A stretch of 64,000 bases of DNA from Gyrodactylus bullatarudis (lineage: Eukaryota > Platyhelminthes > Monogenea > Gyrodactylidea > Gyrodactylidae). The notes under the pieces were generated by a model. That model did no database searches and was not told the DNA's origin. It saw nothing but the letters and a program-made list of their open reading frames with translations. A program made the position numbers and the translations under genes. Where the stretch lies: assembly GCA_012064415.1 (NCBI GenBank), contig SSNU01000087.1, positions 132,489 through 196,488 of the forward strand, in the 5' to 3' direction. Positions within the stretch are counted from its first letter, which is position 1; every line of letters begins with the position of its first letter. Shown piece by piece: positions 4,033 to 45,800 of the stretch.

Positions 4033-5091
4033 TTACATTGGCCAAGGTAATTGAAGATTATAGGAATAGTTTTTTTGAACACATAGATTAGGTTTATATA
4101 GGTTAATAAGAAATTTTTCTTTCACCCATACATCTATGCTGTCGTCATTGGGGTTTTTGTATAAAACGGAAAAATTAGAAACTGAAGCTGTATGATCTTC
4201 TTGTCTAAGGTGCCTAGTAACCGCAGTATCCTTCTTCAGATGATCCTCCGCTCTGGTAGATAATTTCCTAATAGTTATACCTATATATGAGGCTCCACAA
4301 TCACATTGGAATTTGTAAACTAATAGAGTTTTCTTCTCTGGCTTCAGCAAATCCTTATGAATCAAACTAAATAATCTCTGAGTTTTAAATACAATTTTCA
4401 ATTGTATGTTATTATAATGTTGATTGATGAGATCATTTAGCCTTCTTCTAATATCATTACTGAACCCATCACCTTTGAAGTTGAGCTTCATAAAAATAGT
4501 TGTTTTCTCCAATTCATCTGTTTCGACAAGCTCATTTCTATCCATAGATACATTCATGAATTTGTCAACAAATTTACCGGGATAACCATTTTCCTTCAGA
4601 CTTAACTTCACGTTCTCTATTTCGTTAGACCATTCCTCAGGGCTTGCTATCTTTCTTATCCTCTTACTTAGACCAATTACTAAGCCAACTTTATGAGAGA
4701 TAGGACTGAAACTGGCATAATGTAGATACTTCCCGGTGTCAGTCTTCTTCTTATAAATATTTCTCAGAATTGATCCATCTTCTCTTCTAGTCAATTTGAC
4801 ATCTAAGAAACTCAAGATACCATTAGATTCTCTTTCCATAGTAAAAACTATATTCGGATGAAACGAATTCATCTTGGAGAAAAAATCATCTACTGATACG
4901 TTAGGTTTCATTAAAATAAAAGTGTCATCAACATATCTGATGTAAACATCAGTGTAAGAATTGATTGTTTCAGACATTTTATTTAATTCTAACCAACCTA
5001 GGAAGATGTCTGCTAAAAGAGGACTAAGAGGTGAACCCAACCTTTCTGGATGAATACTTTGTTTTGAAACGATAATGGAACGTTTGTACAT
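4033..5091 (-). pseudogene. PLE RT palm/thumb + GIY-YIG nuclease ORF
   Basis: A 352-codon open frame encoding the C-terminal part of a PLE protein, which would reverse-transcribe RNA at a nicked target. GSPLSPLLADIF (19-30) is RT motif B. YVDD (53-56) is the catalytic motif C, and LSFLDVKLTR (93-102) is motif D. A thumb follows, then a GIY-YIG nuclease module from about 258 (VYKFQCDCGASYIG) with arginines at 276 and 280 and a candidate catalytic Glu near 326. The apparent ATG is not a true start: the first 18 residues are out-of-frame sequence caused by a frameshift just before motif B. Motif A and the N-terminus are absent. Identical to the frame at 15154-16212. Confidence 0.85.
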
Positions 5092-5127
5092 CAGATCCTA
5101 ATGAGATCAGTGATTTCATTACTTTGA

Positions 5128-6239: not shown

Positions 6240-6826
6240 AGATTAGAATGATCACATGCGAATAATAAGTGATAAACGTTTTATTTAGCCGGGTCTCTTC
6301 AGACTTAATCCCGGGCTTGAATTATATACTTTTACAATGCAATTATTTCTGCTCTTCCGTTGGTTTAAGAAATCCCTTAGGGGTGGATGGGAGCACAGGT
6401 CTTCCTATATCCATGGACTCATTACTTTTGTCTCTTCATTAGTTTAGGGCCTTTCAAGAATCCATCGATTAGCGACTGACCACTAAATCTCTTACGTTTC
6501 CGCTTAATTGACGGGTTGTCTACTCTTGTGCTAATAGCGGGTTGGCTCATAATTTGATTATCAATTACTGTTGACTTCTCAGGATTTTCACATTTTGTCA
6601 ACTCTATGCTAGTTGCTGTGACTGAACTCTGCACTTGTGTATGGTGATTATTGGCTACAGCCAACTTCTCTTGGTTTTCATCTCGATTTACACTTATGGT
6701 TTGAGTTGAGCTAAATTTTGGTGGGTGTAGGGATTTGGGCTTGAGAATTTTCTCAATTTTCGCTAATTGTTTCCCTTTGATGAACCTATCTCTGCCTGTG
6801 ATACCAAGATTCGATGCGATCAACAC
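6240..6826 (-). pseudogene. PLE lineage 2 C-terminal tail and 3' region
   Basis: A 134-codon minus-strand frame (6422-6826) is the basic tail that follows the GIY-YIG nuclease in lineage-2 PLEs. It opens with IASNLGITGRDRF, equivalent to ILATKLGLTEKSRF in the 43-kb copy, and shares the FSSTQ box with the 43-kb copy. It ends KRKRKRFSGQSLIDGFLKGP and ten residues later stops. QSLIDGFL (codons 117-124, 6455-6478) fits a PCNA-interacting (PIP) box, Q-x-x-[ILM]-x-x-aromatic-hydrophobic. The nuclease and RT are missing. The 3' flank carries a hammerhead-like motif. The tail function is inferred. Confidence 0.7.
6266..6307 (-). ncRNA. Hammerhead-like motif (type C), core mutated
   Basis: Minus strand: UAAGU, CUGAAGA, GACCCGGC, then UAAA where GAAA is expected, an AUAAAACGUUUAU palindrome-like stem III, C17 and ACUUA. 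Stem I UAAGU/ACUUA differs in sequence from the other type C copies but still pairs. The first base of the GAAA box is wrong, so cleavage is unlikely. Confidence 0.5.
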
Positions 6827-6917
6827 CGAGTAGAAAATTTACTTTATTCAAAATAAATAAATACATATAGTGCAGCTATCTTGATACTGAATAAATAATT
6901 GCCCTTTTGTCTAATTA
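6819..6917 (+). repeat. Direct repeat flanking PLE-2 tail, right copy
   Basis: Second copy of the repeat at 6077-6180. The main differences are a short change in the ATTATT run and single bases. It abuts the broken 5' edge of the PLE tail. Confidence 0.75.
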
Positions 6918-8460: not shown

Positions 8461-9119
8461 AATTTCAAGAAAAGAATGCCTTTACCAGAGAAGCCAGGAA
8501 TAATTTTATGAATGAGAAAATTATAAATTGCTTCAGATGGGTAAATTCGTGCGAAATTTAGATGAAGGAAATCTGACTTTAATCAATCGAGAAATGAATA
8601 TTGAACTTTATAATACACCACAGAACGAATGGTATACTCAATCAATTTGAAACCAAAACTTATTCAAAATTATAAAATTCCAATCAAGTATCAAAAATAC
8701 TTGGTTAAAAAATTGAAAAAGAAAAGATTTATGATAAATTTGATTTAAGGAATTAATAAAATTCATGTTGCATGAAAAATCGTTCCTGCATAGCCTAGCC
8801 TTAGAGTTGGTGAGAAGTGGAGAAAAAATTGGTCAGGAAAATACTCAAATTCTACTGGTTGTTGGTTATCATGCCTATTATTGGTCACCTGAAGAGGAGA
8901 AGAGAGGTATAAATATAATTTTGGTAGGAAATATATTCATCCAGTGAGCCATCATGTGTGTAATTAACTGTAGTTATAATGAATTGTAATGAATGAAAAT
9001 GCTGAGTGTTCTGCTACTTGGGTTGACTTGAATGTTTCGGTACATAATATTAGCTTGAATATTTTGTTAATTACAGATTCGAATACAATTAATACATTGA
9101 ATTGTTAATTAATATTAAT
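8461..9119 (+). other. No gene; possible LTR-like promoter relic
   Basis: No convincing coding sequence. Around 8850-8960 the order TATTGG, GAGAGGTATAAATA, CATCATGTGTG parallels 40.78-40.88 kb (TATTGG, GAGAGGTATAAAAGA, CATCATGTGTG). A CAAT-like box, TATA box and initiator-like block in the same order suggest remnants of one promoter-bearing repeat, perhaps a solo LTR. This is weak. Confidence 0.25.
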
Positions 9120-9720
9120 AGTAGAAAGTTTGCTCGAATATACACATCGAAATTAGAATTAACATCTCTCTGTGTGAGAGTGTAAAAGTCTGTAATTTGC
9201 CTATTCTCTCCGACTTCAGCTCTCAGTCGTTTCCTCAAGGGAGTTAGGAGATGAGTCTGCTTTGAGTCATCTAATGTGTCTTTCGAGGAATTTTTGACCC
9301 TATTATTGGTTTTGTAAACAACCCTAAGTGAATCATGGGGATAGGCTTCATTGAAGGCAGTTGTAATCTTCGTTTGGAAGGTTTTGATTGCAAGATCTCC
9401 TCTGAAGGGTGAGTTAAGTACAGCTTGGCCATCGGTTGTCTCTTTTGCCTTTTCCCTCGGCGTATACAGTTTTTAAAGTCTATCATTGATAAGTTCAATA
9501 GTCGTTTGCTAAGAGGATAAGTTTTCCTATTTCACTTTCCCAAACTCCCTCGGATACAATTCGTCTCACTCTTATGGCTAGGGATGATATTGAACATCGT
9601 TTTGGATTCATTGGAACAAAAGAGTTGAAGTTTAGTTTGGCGTCCTGTAAATGTATTCGTTCTGTAAACCGATCTTTCTTGCGTACCAACGATCCTCCGC
9701 GAAATAAATTATTAAAATAA
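9120..9720 (-). pseudogene. PLE thumb relic with basic tail
   Basis: The minus strand begins near 9690 with SFVPMNPKRCSISSLAIRVRRI and SEIGKLILLANDY. After a frameshift it continues KRGKRQKRQPMAKLYLTHPF and, after another, LRVVYKTN and VKNSSKDTLDDSK. This is the RT thumb of a PLE: the LP/HPF-G-D and VVYKT blocks. Where a GIY-YIG domain is expected the sequence instead reads RKRLRAEVGENRQITDFYTL. NRQITDFY (9182-9205) resembles a PIP box, with Asn in place of Gln, so an internal deletion may have joined the thumb to the tail. At least two frameshifts make it a pseudogene. Confidence 0.65.
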
Positions 9721-11824: not shown

Positions 11825-12210
11825 CCAAGGTTGCTAACTGAAAGTCATGCTAGGATTAATAACGGACGAACTTAATTTGGTGAATAAAGCTTTATTTTCG
11901 TCGGTTCTCTTCAGACCAAACACCGACTTGTTATAATTATACATATGAAAATTTAGAGAACATTATAAAATCTGTCCAATAGCATTTATTCAGCCGTTCG
12001 CTGAGAGGAATGTCGAAGCTCTCGGGAAATCTTCTAATGTCCGAGGGCCGGGTGGGGCTCTTTTCCTCTTCTTTTTTGTTGTTTGGCAGAAACCGACAAA
12101 TTCCTTTTCCGTGATGTGGAGGGGGCTTGCAATTCTGGTTGGGAGTAAAATCTCTTACGTTCATCATTGTTTTCAGGGATTTTTGGTTGTCAAGGGGATT
12201 TGAACTGTTA
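11825..12210 (-). pseudogene. PLE lineage 2 tail and 3' region
   Basis: Minus-strand copy of the lineage-2 C-terminal tail, closely related to the one at 44.5-45.0 kb. The real tail frame contains ERKR, then APSTSRKRNLSVSAKQQKRR. An indel after GKE shifts the frame, so the PIP-like end survives only out of frame and altered (PRTLEDFP). The 76-codon open frame at 11937-12167 lies in another phase and is not the protein. The 3' flank carries the best type C hammerhead candidate. Confidence 0.7.
11876..11920 (-). ncRNA. Hammerhead ribozyme candidate (type C, best copy)
   Basis: Minus strand, in order: stem I 5' UUUGGU (11915-11920); CUGAAGA (11908-11914); GAACCGAC (11900-11907); GAAA (11896-11899); stem III as the perfect 14-base palindrome AAUAAAGCUUUAUU (11883-11896); C17 (11882); stem I 3' ACCAAA (11876-11881). 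Stem I is a perfect 6 bp that covaries with other copies. Stem II is weak, with one G-C pair at its base. The segment ACCGAC (11900-11905) could also pair with GUCGGU just upstream (11922-11927), an alternative fold. The palindromic stem III suggests dimeric action. Confidence 0.6.
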
Positions 12211-15153: not shown

Positions 15154-16212
15154 TTACATTGGCCAAGGTAATTGAAGATTATAGGAATAGTTTTTTTGAA
15201 CACATAGATTAGGTTTATATAGGTTAATAAGAAATTTTTCTTTCACCCATACATCTATGCTGTCGTCATTGGGGTTTTTGTATAAAACGGAAAAATTAGA
15301 AACTGAAGCTGTATGATCTTCTTGTCTAAGGTGCCTAGTAACCGCAGTATCCTTCTTCAGATGATCCTCCGCTCTGGTAGATAATTTCCTAATAGTTATA
15401 CCTATATATGAGGCTCCACAATCACATTGGAATTTGTAAACTAATAGAGTTTTCTTCTCTGGCTTCAGCAAATCCTTATGAATCAAACTAAATAATCTCT
15501 GAGTTTTAAATACAATTTTCAATTGTATGTTATTATAATGTTGATTGATGAGATCATTTAGCCTTCTTCTAATATCATTACTGAACCCATCACCTTTGAA
15601 GTTGAGCTTCATAAAAATAGTTGTTTTCTCCAATTCATCTGTTTCGACAAGCTCATTTCTATCCATAGATACATTCATGAATTTGTCAACAAATTTACCG
15701 GGATAACCATTTTCCTTCAGACTTAACTTCACGTTCTCTATTTCGTTAGACCATTCCTCAGGGCTTGCTATCTTTCTTATCCTCTTACTTAGACCAATTA
15801 CTAAGCCAACTTTATGAGAGATAGGACTGAAACTGGCATAATGTAGATACTTCCCGGTGTCAGTCTTCTTCTTATAAATATTTCTCAGAATTGATCCATC
15901 TTCTCTTCTAGTCAATTTGACATCTAAGAAACTCAAGATACCATTAGATTCTCTTTCCATAGTAAAAACTATATTCGGATGAAACGAATTCATCTTGGAG
16001 AAAAAATCATCTACTGATACGTTAGGTTTCATTAAAATAAAAGTGTCATCAACATATCTGATGTAAACATCAGTGTAAGAATTGATTGTTTCAGACATTT
16101 TATTTAATTCTAACCAACCTAGGAAGATGTCTGCTAAAAGAGGACTAAGAGGTGAACCCAACCTTTCTGGATGAATACTTTGTTTTGAAACGATAATGGA
16201 ACGTTTGTACAT
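15154..16212 (-). pseudogene. PLE RT motif B-D, thumb + GIY-YIG nuclease ORF
   Basis: Identical 352-codon frame to 4033-5091. Here its natural upstream partner is present: the frame ending at 16212 overlaps its first ATG by one base. Relatives at 17.7 and 59.1 kb read through this point as IRIC/GICC followed by P-x-SFQIK and K-Q-K-D-G/C-I before GSP. Here a Cys codon has become TGA, and the KQKDGI stretch is shortened and shifted. The gene is therefore split by one nonsense change and one frameshifting deletion. The rest, including YVDD and the nuclease, is intact. Confidence 0.85.
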
Positions 16213-16676
16213 CAGATCCTAATGAGATCAGTGATTTCATTACTTTGAATTTCAAAACCTTCGTGTTCATCAATGAAAGATTTAATAACAGATAACGTCT
16301 CCTCAATAGGTATACTAGAAAATAAAGAGTTTACATCTAATGAAATCATTTCGTTTAAAACAATATTTAAATCCTTAATTCTATCCACAAAAGCGAATGT
16401 ATCTTTGACAACATATTTAGCATAATATATATGTATTGGTTTTAATACATCAATTAAACACTTCGCTAAATTATGTTGTGGACATGACGACATATCCAAG
16501 ATCGGCCTTACTGGAAACACCTCTGGAACTACATTATCAACTATTTTATGTGTCTTTGGATGTAAATACAACCTAGACATCCTAGTATGCTTTTTAGCTA
16601 TAAAACCTCTAGTTTGATCAGAAATGACTTTCTTATCATGTAGTCCTTTTGCTATTTTGTACATGTTACGCTCCAT
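16212..16676 (-). pseudogene. PLE RT fingers/palm, motif A half
   Basis: A 154-codon minus-strand frame with the N-terminal half of the PLE RT. FIAKKHTRMSRLYLHPKTHK (25-44) and RPILDMSSCPQHNLAKCL (57-74) are conserved PLE finger blocks. ISLDVNSLFSSIPIEETL (111-128) is RT motif A with the catalytic Asp (114). It ends at a TGA (16212-16214) where the 352-codon frame begins. The first ATG (MERNMYK) is internal, since readable PLE protein (TGQDRSSYYKVIESMERNMY) continues upstream past a stop. Confidence 0.85.
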
Positions 16677-31068: not shown

Positions 31069-31218
31069 CCAATGAGAGCAAAGGAGTGTCGCAGCTCTCG
31101 GGACTGTGAAGAATTCATCTAATGTCCGAGTGCCGGGTGGTGCATTTTTCCTCTGTTTCCCTCTTCTTTTTTGTTGCTTGGGAGAAACCGACAAATTCCT
31201 TTTCCGTGATATGGAGGC
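31060..31218 (-). pseudogene. PLE lineage 2 tail fragment with PIP-like end
   Basis: Minus strand: RKRNLSVSPKQQKRRGKQRK, then NAPPGTRTLDEFFTVPRA. It is nearly identical to the tail of the 44.7-kb copy. TRTLDEFF (31108-31131) resembles a PIP box with Thr for Gln. The natural stop four residues after FFTV is lost here. Both edges are truncated, the left one inside the piggyBac relic. Confidence 0.75.
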
Positions 31219-32739
31219 GGCAAATGATGTCAACAAAATTAAATTTTCATTCAATAAACCAGCTTGGGCATCAAAGAAATTATTCAAAAAGTATTTGAAC
31301 TCTAGGAAGAAAATGACATTTGGAAGATAGAAGCAGTTTACTTTTCATTTCAGTGCTCACTTTAACCATTTTAAAGAAGTACCTAAGTATGATGTTGACA
31401 CTTGAGAAATGCCCTGAGCAACTTTTTTTGATCTAGGGCTTGTTAATAGTTGTACATCGATGATAAAGGGTCCATCAGTAAAAAAGAAAAACTATATTTG
31501 TCGAAGAAAGCTCAATATTGAATCCTACTATAGATGATTTTCAATAAATTATTTTCTAAACAGTAATATTTTCTTTTTGTAATTCAGAAATTTTTATCTT
31601 CACTGTTTATATACTTCACAAATTGTCTCACTTTACAGAACTATTACTTGAATTCGAATCTCAGACATAATTCATAATTGTGTTGAAGTGAGGGAAAAAA
31701 CTGAAAATAGAAATATTGGGTCATAGTTCTCAAAAATATTTTGAAAGAATAAATAAGATATCGATAATTTGAATATATTTGAAATTTGAAATCATGGTTC
31801 TTCGCATCTCTTTTATCACACATTCGTGATAATTATTTTAAAATCCTTATAGAAATTTATATACAGAGTAAGATTATTAATATTTTTATTAATTTTCTTT
31901 AGTTTCAAAATAATTTACTATAATCACAAAAAAATAGAACACGGTAAAAAGATTTCAGATAAATCCCTTTTTGAGAATATCTCTAACAAGAAAATGCAAA
32001 AAGGTTTATAGTAATTGCCTGTTGAATGCGGCTATGTAATCATCAGAATTTGAAATCTAATTATATGAATAAACCATATATATGGAATGGATAATACACT
32101 TGATATATGATTTCAGGGAAAAACCAGTGAAAATGGAAAAAGTATAGTTCATTTCCCATTTTCATTAAGTTTTCACTTGTTCCCACTTCACCATTGATTC
32201 CTAGGTTCAAAAATTAAAAAAAAAAGTTAAAATTTGATTATGAAGGGTGCTTCAGCCTTGCTCAGCACTTTTTCCCTGCCCGGAATGAATCACTCGGATT
32301 GGCCTGGTAGAGGATTGTGCAGTTTTTCATATTTTTGAAAAACGAGGCGTTATTGTGCCATTGGAGGAAATTCAACAACCTGTTACATGATTTGTGTGCC
32401 AATTTGTACTGAAAGCAGTATTTTTCACAGTATATATATTAGTCTATGGTCCACGCGCTTTTTCAGTTGAATATATTATCTAAATTACAATTAAATTAAG
32501 GTGATAAAGAATAATCCATCAGAGATATTCCTGAAAAAATCTTTTAGGTGCAGTTTGCTTGAACTGACGTGAACTTACCAGATTAAGATGATGAATTAGT
32601 GAAAAATCTCAGCTCAGACTTGCTTTCTATTGCTGAACATATCCTGACTGGCTTACACGTATAACTTGAACGATTTTATTGAATGACAAGATACTTGAAT
32701 ATTATTGTTGAGTGGTTATTGAGATGTGGTTACATATGT
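31219..32739. other. No gene supported (1.5 kb)
   Basis: A+T-rich. CTCACTTTACAGAACTATTA near 31.63 kb resembles the right inverted-repeat end of the transposon at 36.6-38.1 kb. No coding region stands out. Confidence 0.4.
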
Positions 32740-42799: not shown

Positions 42800-43568
42800 T
42801 TTGGAAGTCAAGTGGATATTTAGTAATAAAGCTTATAATTCACCAGATCTCGTCAGACTATTACACCGGCTAGATATATATAATAAATTTGATTATCAAT
42901 AATATCCTCTGATTGGTTATATCACTCTAGGGCATATAAGGGGAGGGTTTAAGGTTGGTTTGTAGTATCCATGATCATTGTTTCCTTTTCACGTATCTGT
43001 CCATCGTTGGTTGCCCACTTAGACTTTTACGTTTTCTACCTCTTTTGCCAACTGCAGGTGTACCCTGCTTTGTACTGTGAGGACTGTTAATTATGGGCTG
43101 AGATTTAATTAGATTATCAACTACCGCTGATTCTGGATTTTTTCTTTTATTCTCAGTTGGAATTGTTACTGGGGCAGAAGATTGGAGATCATTTAGGGGA
43201 GGCGTAGATTCAACTACTTGCTCATTTTGTTCAATTATCACACCAACTTTGCTTGCATTGGGTTTCTGGGTGGAACTGAAAATTGGAATATTTTCAAGTA
43301 GCTTTGCAGCTCTATCAAGCTTACTTTTGTTTGTAAACCTGCTTTTTTCCGTCAGGCCTAACTTAGTGGCCAGGATTTTTTGCTTACACAGAATTGGGCT
43401 CAACTTTTTTATGAAATGGGCTACATCTTTGTTCAAGGCATCTGCTTTCATCTTTTGAGGATCACTAGGGTTTGCTTGAAATAGGATGCTGAAGTTGTTA
43501 ACATCAGCAGTGTGATTTGTATCTTTCAAGTGCTCCTGTACCGCAGAACCATGATTAATAGTCCTCAC
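42800..43568 (-). pseudogene. PLE lineage 2 nuclease end + PIP-like tail
   Basis: A 197-codon minus-strand frame (42975-43568). Residues 1-70 are the C-terminal half of the GIY-YIG domain (SAVQEHLKDTNHTADVNNFS, then a long helix). From about 65 the tail starts with ILATKLGLTEKSRF and includes IFSSTQKPNAS. It ends VGKRGRKRKSLSG then QPTMDRYVKRKQ. QPTMDRYV (186-193, 42990-43013) fits the PIP-box spacing Q-x-x-M-x-x-Y-V, four residues before the stop. The ATG is internal, and the RT and first half of the nuclease are missing. Confidence 0.75.
42821..42860 (-). ncRNA. Hammerhead-like motif (type C), N7 variant
   Basis: Minus strand: UAGU, CUGACGA, GAUCUGGU, GAAU (expected GAAA), a palindrome-like UAUAAGCUUUAUU, then ACUA. 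The change to CUGACGA falls at the one position of the CUGANGA box that is free to vary. The mutated GAAA box suggests loss of activity. Confidence 0.45.
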
Positions 43569-43890
43569 AGTACAAAGCAGGGTACACCTGCAGTTGGCAA
43601 AAGAGGCATTTGAAACTGAAAAAAATTAGTCTCTTTGACTCATTGAAATTTGTTCGGTACGGACCCCTCATTGTATTATATATCAAATTCGTATTTTTTC
43701 TTATCACCCTCACACAATTTATCTTTGATAATTTTGATGGATTAATTTAAAAATGTGTAGTGGGACAAGGGATATTTACAAATATGTGAAATAGATTTGT
43801 ATATTATAGATTTTTATTACTAAATATCAACTTGACTTCCAAATCCTCTAAATGAGTCTTTCATTTGAAACTGAAAATATCTTCGAAGAA

Positions 43891-44512
43891 GCTCGGCACT
43901 ATTTCCCAAACAAACTAAATTTTATGCTGTATATTTGTTTAGCACAAGGATAAAAAACAATAAGCTTGTAGATCATAAGTCTAGCTAGATTTCGATTTAA
44001 GAATATTAATCTCCCTTTGAAAGTTATCACAAATCAAAATATGGTTGGAGAATGTATGGAGTCCACCTCCAGCGCGAGGATTTAAAATATTCTATCACAA
44101 TATTTCGATCAACTGGGCGATTACTAGAGAAATAATAATTCTTCTGAACCAAAAAATAATAAACATATAATAATTCTTCAAGTAGTGAATAAGGTCACTA
44201 TAATTTCAGACAGCCTCAGTGAGAAACTCAGATAATATTTTAATATCAATGCTATTTTTTTAGATTCAATACTAATAGAATATCTAGCATAAATTGATAC
44301 TTAGTTTTGATTGAACAGAATCAATATTCCATATACTATTCAAGATAGAATTATATAAAAGATATATTTGATCAGGATGGATTACAGATGTATCAAAAAG
44401 CTAAGTCTCTATCATAAAAGCCCTCTTTTACTAATTTTACCATTTTAATGCGAAATACAGAATATTTTTTTCGACATAAGTTGCCTGATTTCCTCGAAAA
44501 TATTCTGAGGTT
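43891..44512. other. No feature recognised
   Basis: A+T-rich with no gene or repeat end that I can support. Confidence 0.4.
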
Positions 44513-45800
44513 GCTGACTGAAAGTCATGCTAGGATTAAGAACGATCGAAATTTATTTGGTGAATTAAGCTCTATTTTCGTCGGTTCTCTTCAGACCAAA
44601 CACCGACTTGTTATATTTAGATATATGAAAATTTAGAGAACATTATAAAAAAAGTCCAATAGCATTCATTCAGCCATTCGCGACCAATGAGAGGAGAGTA
44701 ATGTCTAAGCTCTCGTGACTGTGAAGAATTCATCTAATGTCCGAGTGCCGGGTGGTGCATTTTTCCTCTGTTTCCCTCTTCTTTTTTGTTGCTTGGGAGA
44801 AACCGACAAATTCCTTTTCCGTGATGTGGAGGGGGCTTGCAATTCAAGTTGGGAGTAAGATCTCTTACGTTCATCATTGTTCTCCGGGATTGTGTGGTTG
44901 TCAAGGTGATTGGAACTGTTAGAGATTGCTTCGATGGGGGTTTCACAACTAGAAGGAGAGTCATCATCAACTAATGTTGAGGTTTATGTTATGTTCAATC
45001 TAGTTTCTGGGCCATCGTTTTCCGATTCTCTTATGGGGTATTTTTGGGTTGAAGTGAAAATTTGTTCGTTTTCGGCAGGTGAATTATCAACTGATGTTGA
45101 GATTAGAATTGTATTGACCGAACTCGAGTCCAAGTTTCTTTCTTGGTTGGGAGGGTTGGCATTGTCTTTCTCGGTCATCTTTGAGACTTTCTTTATCATC
45201 TTGGACGGCTTGTGGAACTCAACGCCGGTGAAGCCGAACTTCCTACCCAGTATTTTCTGTGCTCAGAGAGAAAGTAGCTCTTCATTCACTAATTTTGCCT
45301 CTGCGATTTCTAAAATCTTTTGTGTGCGGAATTTGTTTAGCTTTGGGTCCGCGGTGTATCCTATCTTGAAGTTTACAATTCCTGAAGAGTAATTAGTTTG
45401 CCGGATATGTTCTTGGATGGATGAGCCGTCGTTACTAGGGTTGAGATGCTCTTTGATCCTTGCTGAAATCGGTCTTATTGTCATGCCAATATTGGATTGT
45501 CCGCAGGAACATTTGAACTCATAAACCACACCTTTTCTGTTGAGCCATCTGACCGGATCCTTGTTGCGGTCATTGAGCAATTTGATTCGGCAGCAGACGT
45601 ACTTTGTATCCTGGGAAGGTTTCTGTCGTTAGCTTGGAGAGTTTATTCTTCAGGATAGAGTTGGGAACATCCCCTTTGAACGGCAGTTGTAGCAGCAGGT
45701 GTTTGGGGTTAGTTTCCTCTGCTATTTTGTCGTTCTCTTTGATCCGGGCATGTTCTTTTGGGTAACCACATGATTCAAAATTTTTGAAGACCGATTTTTG
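44513..45800 (-). pseudogene. PLE lineage 2 thumb, GIY-YIG and PIP-like tail
   Basis: The most complete lineage-2 C-terminus. From 45800: thumb (FKNFESCGYPKEHARIKEND, LLLQLPFKGDVPNSILKNKL), a frameshift near 45.58 kb, then one continuous phase from 45580 to 44705. It carries GIY-YIG (VYEFKCSCGQSNIGMTIRP, 45263-45580), a linker (KFGFTGVEF, IFTSTQKYP) and a basic tail (ERKRSYSQLELQAPSTSRKR, KQQKRRGKQRK) ending GTRTLDEFFTVTRA at a TAG (44705-44707). Two in-frame stops (near 45265 and at 44984-44986) interrupt it. TRTLDEFF (44723-44746) is PIP-like. Open frames in other phases (44734-44970, 44910-45392) are shadows. Confidence 0.8.
44556..44600 (-). ncRNA. Hammerhead ribozyme candidate (type C)
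   Basis: Same layout as 11876-11920: UUUGGU/ACCAAA stem I, CUGAAGA, GAACCGAC, GAAA, an imperfect palindrome AAUAGAGCUUAAUU and C17. The upstream GUCGGU able to pair with ACCGAC is also present. Confidence 0.55.

Follow-up and report, generated by a model that had tools for sequence, protein, structure and literature searches.

Do proteins of Penelope-like elements (PLEs) end in a peptide that reaches the host replication clamp PCNA? The question is raised by a 64,000-nucleotide stretch of the flatworm Gyrodactylus bullatarudis (assembly GCA_012064415.1, contig SSNU01000087.1, positions 132,489 to 196,488 of the forward strand; hereafter the window). PLEs are abundant in the 77 Mb assembly, and the window holds many PLE fragments, several of which extend past the GIY-YIG endonuclease into a tail that closes with a short motif of PCNA-interacting protein (PIP) box spacing. 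The tails belong to three lineages, here termed A, B and C, and in lineage A the motif is under selection at the protein level. Judging from the sequences, the tails of all three lineages probably end in a selected, PIP-like C-terminus that binds PCNA. The grammar that goes with this somewhat favored reading would be a basic cluster followed by x-x-x-[ILM]-x-x-[FY]-[aliphatic or aromatic] and the end of the protein; in lineage A, position 1 is Gln.

PIP-like motifs in the window

The tail-bearing copies of the window are the following.

~42975-43560, minus strand: 5'-truncated lineage-A PLE fragment, GIY-YIG endonuclease end and C-terminal tail
42990-43013, minus strand: PIP-like motif QPTMDRYV of lineage A, flanked by basic GRKRKSLSG and KRKQ-stop
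44705-45628, minus strand: PLE copy of lineage B with endonuclease and long tail, interrupted by two in-frame stops
44723-44746, minus strand: PIP-like motif TRTLDEFF of lineage B, stop 5 residues further
31093-31221, minus strand: lineage-B tail fragment, TRTLDEFF at 31108-31131, 14 residues to the stop
12017-12180, minus strand: lineage-B tail fragment, frameshift ahead of the motif, motif missed
6422-6838, minus strand: lineage-A tail of a different subfamily, tail fragment only, QSLIDGFL at 6455-6478, 10 residues to the stop
9089-9472, minus strand: lineage-C fragment, NRQITDFY at 9182-9205; the usual stop is gone, and the reading frame continues for 30 residues

All five peptides named in a preliminary description of this DNA are encoded at these places on the minus strand. 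The distance from motif to stop is 4 residues for QPTMDRYV, 5 for TRTLDEFF at 44723, 10 for QSLIDGFL, 14 for TRTLDEFF at 31108 and 30 for NRQITDFY, which bears out the description that three of the five lie 4-10 residues before the stop; the FSSTQ/FTSTQ linker is likewise present in those three frames. However, what had been drawn as one feature at 42990-45580 is in fact two elements, the lineage-A fragment at ~42975-43560 and the lineage-B copy at 44705-45628. Moreover, the single "lineage 2" splits into three, with NRQITDFY representing the third, which has a short tail and no FSSTQ linker, the tails of A and B being long. As none of the five motif-bearing copies of the window is intact, selection is not demonstrable from the window alone, and copies elsewhere in the assembly were therefore used.

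Conservation of the lineage-A motif across the assembly

The assembly was searched with the 216-residue open frame at 42975-43625, the first ~22 residues of which stem from an inverted fragment and not from the PLE protein; genome copies start aligning at about residue 20-24 of this frame. At least 155 lineage-A matches were obtained, with open frames of up to 855 residues. From these we assembled 70 tail rows, comprising 30 loci and 40 of 80 further matches chosen for reaching, or nearly reaching, the tail end; the rows stand for 69 places, since L027 and L030 overlap and are the same copy. The pattern Q..[ILMV]..[FY] lies within the last 30 residues of 58 of the 70 rows, and the 12 misses consist of eight frameshifts or truncations, one stop replacing the Tyr and three substitutions.

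Removal of the eight frameshifted or truncated rows and of rows shorter than 186 residues left 52 rows, 47 of them distinct. Gln, [ILM] and [FY] are all kept in 34 of the 35 distinct stop-free tails, and in 9 of the 12 distinct tails with internal stops. Gln occupies position 1 in 45 of the 47 distinct tails and in every one of the 35 stop-free tails, the single stop-free failure (L089) being at position 7. Position 4 in the 47 tails, from which frameshifted copies are left out, is only I, M or L, whereas position 7 is Y in 25, F in 20, L in one (L089) and a stop in one (L010). Among the 20 distinct matching 8-mers, position 4 is I in 12, M in 6 and L in 2, and position 7 is F in 11 and Y in 9; positions 2, 3 and 6 are varied, position 5 is mostly D, and position 8 is V, L, I, M or T.

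Among shuffled versions of the tails, 0.7-1.2% had the loose pattern [ILM]..[FY][FYLVIM] in their last 20 residues and 0.2-1.4% had Q..[ILM]..[FY] there; conservation among copies is stronger evidence than such estimates of chance. In addition, motif-bearing families have multiplied recently: the motif is present in 11 groups of near-identical copies (at least 98.5% over at least 440 nucleotides), of which one includes a frameshifted copy (L008).

Codon-level selection in lineage A

Codon changes in the 47 distinct lineage-A tails were counted by parsimony, using a tree from which the motif columns had been left out; the counts and the Fisher p values below ignore relatedness. With the motif Gln numbered 0, the anchor positions 0, 3 and 6 (Q, [ILM] and [FY]) accumulated 11 nonsynonymous and 14 synonymous changes, corresponding to 1.42 and 11.2 per site, respectively, and to an omega-like ratio of ~0.13. 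Compared to the anchors, the x positions 1, 2 and 5 changed at 4.03 nonsynonymous changes per site, with a ratio of ~0.51. The corresponding ratios are 0.23 for the endonuclease, 0.28 for the basic patch, 0.18 for the SG just before the motif, 0.09 for the KR just after it, and 0.64 and 0.71 for the two linkers. Drift of the motif at the rate of the linker, which the preliminary description had named as refuting it, is thus not seen at the anchors. Synonymous change per site at the anchors (11.2) matches that of the endonuclease (10.4), and the constraint therefore acts at the protein level. Against the linkers, the whole 12-residue block gives a p value of 2.9e-6 and the x positions give 0.10.

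The tails of lineages B and C

At least 150 lineage-B matches were found, and 20 of their tails were read. The pattern [IL]..[FY][FL] is kept in 18 of the 20; the two exceptions are L092, in which position 4 is S, and the window fragment at 12017-12180, which is frameshifted. Nine close B loci read TRTLDEFL (seven loci, then a short basic end), TRTSDEFL (one) and TRTLDEFF (one, the window copy itself); TRTLDEFF, previously given as the motif, is therefore genuine in the window and not the typical form. More divergent B copies end in NQTIDVFLTAPRV, NQTIDVFLTARRA, HQKIDGFLTARRV, TQQIHKFFTANKQ and NKSIHDYFKPNT, and also in SQKIDVFLTVPRV, and another one reads TQKIQKFFTTP..., with the stop absent from the stretch read.

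The lineage-C tail is short, running ~30 residues past the endonuclease and ending in SRKRMRAEVEVNRQITDFYPPTQ and variants. The spacing [IL]-x-x-[FY]-[FYL] is kept in 13 of 15 C tails, which include NNQITKYF (L043) and QTLITSYL (L110); the misses are L041, which is frameshifted, and L111. Near-identical copies (L045-L048 and L036/L037) are counted among these 13. The exact pattern N-x-Q-I-T-D-F-Y occurs at 71 places in the assembly and its reversal at none. It is present in 46 of the 102 C matches that reach at least position 91 of the 94-residue query, namely in 33 of 40 with at least 70% identity and in 13 of 62 below that.

Across the lineages, position 4 is thus aliphatic in all 47 A tails, in 18 of the 20 B tails read and in 13 of the 15 C tails read. 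Both positions 7 and 8 are aromatic only in some B tails (TQQIHKFF, TQKIQKFF, NKSIHDYF and TRTLDEFF) and in 12 of the 13 motif-bearing C tails, and position 1 in B and C is mostly N, T, H or S.

Protein architecture and host PCNA

The PF00078 profile scored over its cut-off in L006 and L096 and just under it in L067, whereas PF01541 scored over its cut-off in the tailless lineage and at 19 places, and was not listed for L006, L096 and L067. In a 33-row alignment, R-Y-x-D-D and the endonuclease residues are invariant. The lineage-A protein L006, the only one modeled, was predicted by AlphaFold2 from an alignment of 33 rows, six of which have the tail. Its reverse transcriptase (RT) and endonuclease mostly have a predicted local distance difference test (pLDDT) score above 70, and the best PDB fold match of the model is telomerase RT, as expected for PLEs. 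By contrast, residues 589-694 have a pLDDT of ~30, and the tail is thus predicted to be disordered. Inside the motif, D687-Y689 form a three-residue helical turn, which at this pLDDT is only suggestive. The 20 residues preceding the motif carry a net charge of +0.30 to +0.45 per residue in six A rows and one B row.

The host PCNA gene gave one match, with an intact single open frame of ~260 residues that most resembles the PCNAs of other flatworms (Fasciolopsis 82%, Opisthorchis 82% and Mesocestoides 78%). It retains the stretches LQAMDSAHVSLVSL, LDVDHLGIP and FYLAPKIEDDAD, which make up the PIP pocket of human PCNA.

Comparison with known clamp-binding motifs

The canonical PIP box Q-x-x-[LMIV]-x-x-aromatic-aromatic does not describe these tails, as it fails on position 8 in lineage A and on the Gln in lineage B and nearly all of lineage C. 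Accordingly, the PIP box of the preliminary description stands with respect to its spacing and falls with respect to its canonical form: position 8 is aliphatic in A, and B and C nearly always lack Gln at position 1. Curated PCNA motifs are themselves less uniform, 34% having no Q and 43% lacking one aromatic (Prestel et al. 2019, PMC6881253). They lie mostly in disordered regions, and positive flanks can alter their affinity by four orders of magnitude (PMC6881253). A Q-to-A change in p21 lowered its affinity 50-fold (PMC6881253). The basic flanks, the disordered tail and the conserved host PCNA are thus consistent with PIP biology (PMC6881253).

The PIP and PIP-like motifs of p21, FEN1 and POLD3 (PMC6881253) share with the PLE tails the aliphatic residue at position 4, the aromatic residue at position 7, the positive flanks, the disordered terminus and, in lineage A, the Gln at position 1. 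In particular, RKRR-QTSMTDFY-HSKRR of p21 (PMC6881253) resembles GRKRKSLSG-QPTMDRYV-KRKQ of lineage A and the ITDFY of lineage C. The differences lie in position 8, which is aliphatic in A, and in position 1, for which B and C mostly have N, T, H or S. Altogether, lineage A, which combines Gln, [ILM] and [FY] with charged flanks on either side, fits the wider PIP-like picture, and lineages B and C fit it less canonically.

Two other PCNA-directed motifs were compared with the tails. The CRL4-Cdt2 PIP degron requires TD at positions 5-6 and K or R at +4; both occur together in none of 79 rows, with TD in 9 and the +4 basic residue in 28 (near-copies counted separately). Absence of the degron would suit a protein that has to survive contact with loaded PCNA. 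The AlkB homologue 2 PCNA-interacting motif (APIM), [KR]-[FYW]-[LIVA]-[LIVA]-[KR] (pattern from PMC6881253), is not matched by eye either, as lineage A reads for example R-Y-V-K-R, with K at an aliphatic slot.

PCNA-binding motifs on mobile-element proteins are already known (L1 and Pogo; PMC5371812). One example is ORF2p of LINE-1 (L1), likewise an endonuclease-RT protein from a retroelement, for which PCNA binding and a need for PCNA in retrotransposition have been reported (PMC10830420, PMC7617806). Unlike the PLE peptide, which is C-terminal, predicted to be disordered and part of another retroelement class, the proposed PIP box of ORF2p is internal and folded. Clamp contact, mostly via a short motif, is also made by the Drosophila Pogo transposase, which has a PIP box, and by bacterial beta-clamp-binding transposition proteins such as TnsE and TnpA (reviewed in PMC5371812); these belong to DNA transposons, which do not involve reverse transcription. 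Our literature search, which left most subscription journals and preprints outside, found nothing relevant that links Penelope-like elements with PCNA, and passages of PMC3846280 make no mention of PCNA.

Relatives without the tail

Canonical Penelope/Poseidon PLEs, such as PAc of Anolis (PMC11167929), share with lineages A-C the RT followed by a C-terminal GIY-YIG endonuclease. The same holds for a tailless lineage 1 of this genome, which provides an in-genome contrast and has two copies in the window.

4033-5097, minus strand: tailless PLE lineage 1, RT end and GIY-YIG, ending NLQLPWPM-stop, without the motif
15154-16218, minus strand: second tailless lineage-1 copy, protein identical to that at 4033-5097, without the motif

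The two copies have identical 354-residue frames and lie 11 kb apart, pointing to a recent duplication or insertion.

In contrast to lineages A-C, lineage 1 and, by eye, most of the listed database relatives have no comparable tail or motif. From 7995 candidates sharing most words, 280 PLE relatives were identified, of which 120 were listed and 83 of these have at least 600 residues. Most of the 83 end just past the endonuclease (as judged by eye), with LPWP in the closest ones, and their last 30 residues hold the loose motif in three cases and the Gln form in one. The tail was accordingly rejected as a general feature of PLEs.

In the tree, A and B form a clade (support 100) and C is a group of its own (100); C, tailless lineage 1 and flatworm relatives meet in an unresolved fork. 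The motif-bearing lineages were thus not recovered as one clade, only A and B being joined. This fork is compatible both with one old origin followed by losses and with two gains. There is perhaps an even chance that we are looking at a radiation of clamp-guided PLEs, in which several lineages have a genuine C-terminal PCNA tether on a fast-evolving disordered tail, kept or gained repeatedly under selection.

Weighing PCNA binding against other explanations

Several observations weigh against PCNA as the partner. Position 8 of lineage A offers no second aromatic residue, being V in 25 tails, L in 10, I in 9, M in 2 and T in 1. Gln at position 1 is found in none of the 18 motif-bearing B tails and in only L110 among the 13 motif-bearing C tails. 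Furthermore, the N-flank of C is weakly basic (+0.10 in one row). Selection was measured in lineage A only, and there the N:S contrast between anchors and linkers, for which the linkers and not the x positions served as the comparison, is modest (p 0.015, relatedness ignored). The motif is also missing from some long frames and tail ends. The preliminary description had asked whether intact members lack it, and the stop-free A tails do not, 34 of 35 keeping Q, [ILM] and [FY]; L008 (678 residues) and L065 (507 residues), however, have long open frames from which the motif is gone by frameshift or truncation. Similarly, the C relative L111 has a 533-residue open frame and no motif, and 56 of the 102 tail-reaching C matches are without the exact N-x-Q-I-T-D-F-Y, few of their ends having been read. 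When the L006 tail region was compared with 5.8 billion proteins, none of the 705 candidates reached E<=0.001, hence no tail relative in other species, and a profile of 14 C-termini had 0 matches among PDB chains. Finally, L1 ORF2p provides a warning: a PIP box of canonical appearance had been proposed for it, yet later work that used binding-defective mutants located the PCNA contact elsewhere, at the "PUB" wrist site (PMC7617806).

That spaced hydrophobic anchors are under selection indicates a peptide-binding function and does not by itself name the partner. It is conceivable, if unlikely, that the motif serves another partner of the same grammar, such as a translesion polymerase hub like the Rev1 C-terminal domain, an Mlh1-type site, the 9-1-1 clamp or another nuclear protein. 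The two large hydrophobic residues at positions 7-8 of B and C (FF, FL, YF and FY) would suit such a partner. A Rev1-interacting region is defined by an FF pair, and lineage A instead has F or Y followed mostly by V, L or I. Moreover, the Gln at position 1 of A (35 of 35 stop-free tails) and the basic residues on both sides fit PCNA best.

The conserved basic clusters on both sides of the A motif (ratio 0.28 for the patch and 0.09 for the following KR) could alternatively mean that the protein closes with no more than a nuclear or nucleolar localization signal or a nucleic-acid-binding patch, the residues between the clusters being passengers. We consider this quite unlikely, as it leaves unexplained why the Q, [ILM] and [FY] anchors are held while neighboring x positions drift, and why the spacing persists in B and C, whose flanks differ. 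Conserved C-terminal hydrophobic peptides can in general act as intramolecular latches, and the peptide might accordingly dock on its own RT or endonuclease, or dimerize; this is improbable in view of the pLDDT of ~30 at residues 589-694, itself weak evidence given an alignment of 33 rows, six with the tail. That the motif is a functionless chance likeness passed on by common descent is highly improbable and already disfavored by the codon data, for although short motifs arise randomly and the loose form occurs near the C-terminus of three of the 83 listed database PLEs, anchor synonymous sites changed as often as those of the endonuclease while nonsynonymous sites did not, and the spacing is kept in the tails of three lineages.

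Proposed mechanism and implications

From these comparisons we infer PCNA binding and the steps that would follow it. The PLE protein would nick the target DNA and reverse-transcribe its RNA, upon which the flexible tail could bind PCNA on the target or nascent DNA. The PCNA-bound tail might then keep the complex at nicks or forks. Alternatively, the tail might recruit host PCNA clients that remove the RNA, synthesize the second strand and carry out ligation; domains for these three activities were not recognized in the PLE protein. Either way, PLE insertion would be tied to replication forks or repair synthesis, as the preliminary description had suggested.

If PCNA is indeed the partner, peptide-type PCNA tethering would extend to the third class of eukaryotic retroelements, and the replication or repair of the host would be linked with insertion or second-strand synthesis, the Cdt2 degron form being absent. 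PLEs would then be an independent clamp-using retroelement beside L1, whose clamp-binding site is disputed (PMC7617806). Such a tether would also name a host factor and allow a peptide-scale test.

Other features of the tails

A second conserved block of the A tail, E-K-S-T-x-V-D-N-x-I-x-[ST]-Q-P-x-I, lies 47 to 28 residues upstream of the motif Gln, and its mean entropy is 0.66, compared to 1.17 for the PIP-like block. S/T-Q sites recur in the tails: FSSTQ/FTSTQ follows the endonuclease in A and B, and most tails of each lineage hold an SQP, as IxSQP in A, YSQPE in B and SSQPP in C. They resemble ATM/ATR-type target sites.

A dyad, TCAAC-N4-GTTGA(TAAT), lies in frame within the tail coding sequence (S-T-x-V-D-N) of many A and B loci. 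In lineage A it occurs once, with GTTGATAAT in 46 of 47 copies and TCAAC in 40 of 47, and no synonymous change was inferred at V, D and N. In the B loci checked it occurs twice, 120 base pairs apart, and the window copies are at 44967-44980 and 45087-45100. Within 364 kb of mostly PLE-selected loci, TCAAC-N4-GTTGA has 174 both-strand matches, compared to 0.77 expected from base composition. The dyad could form a hairpin of 5-6 base pairs and holds a TGATAA core of the GATA type. These features suggest an element acting at the nucleic-acid level.

The lineage-A fragment of the window also has an unusual 5' junction, at which its own tail DNA is repeated in inverted orientation.

43039-43096 and 43549-43606, no strand assigned: inverted pair of 58 base pairs, 96.6% identical, an inverted copy of the lineage-A fragment's own tail DNA at its 5' junction

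This inverted tail piece at the 5' end of a truncated copy is a possible trace of aberrant PLE insertion.

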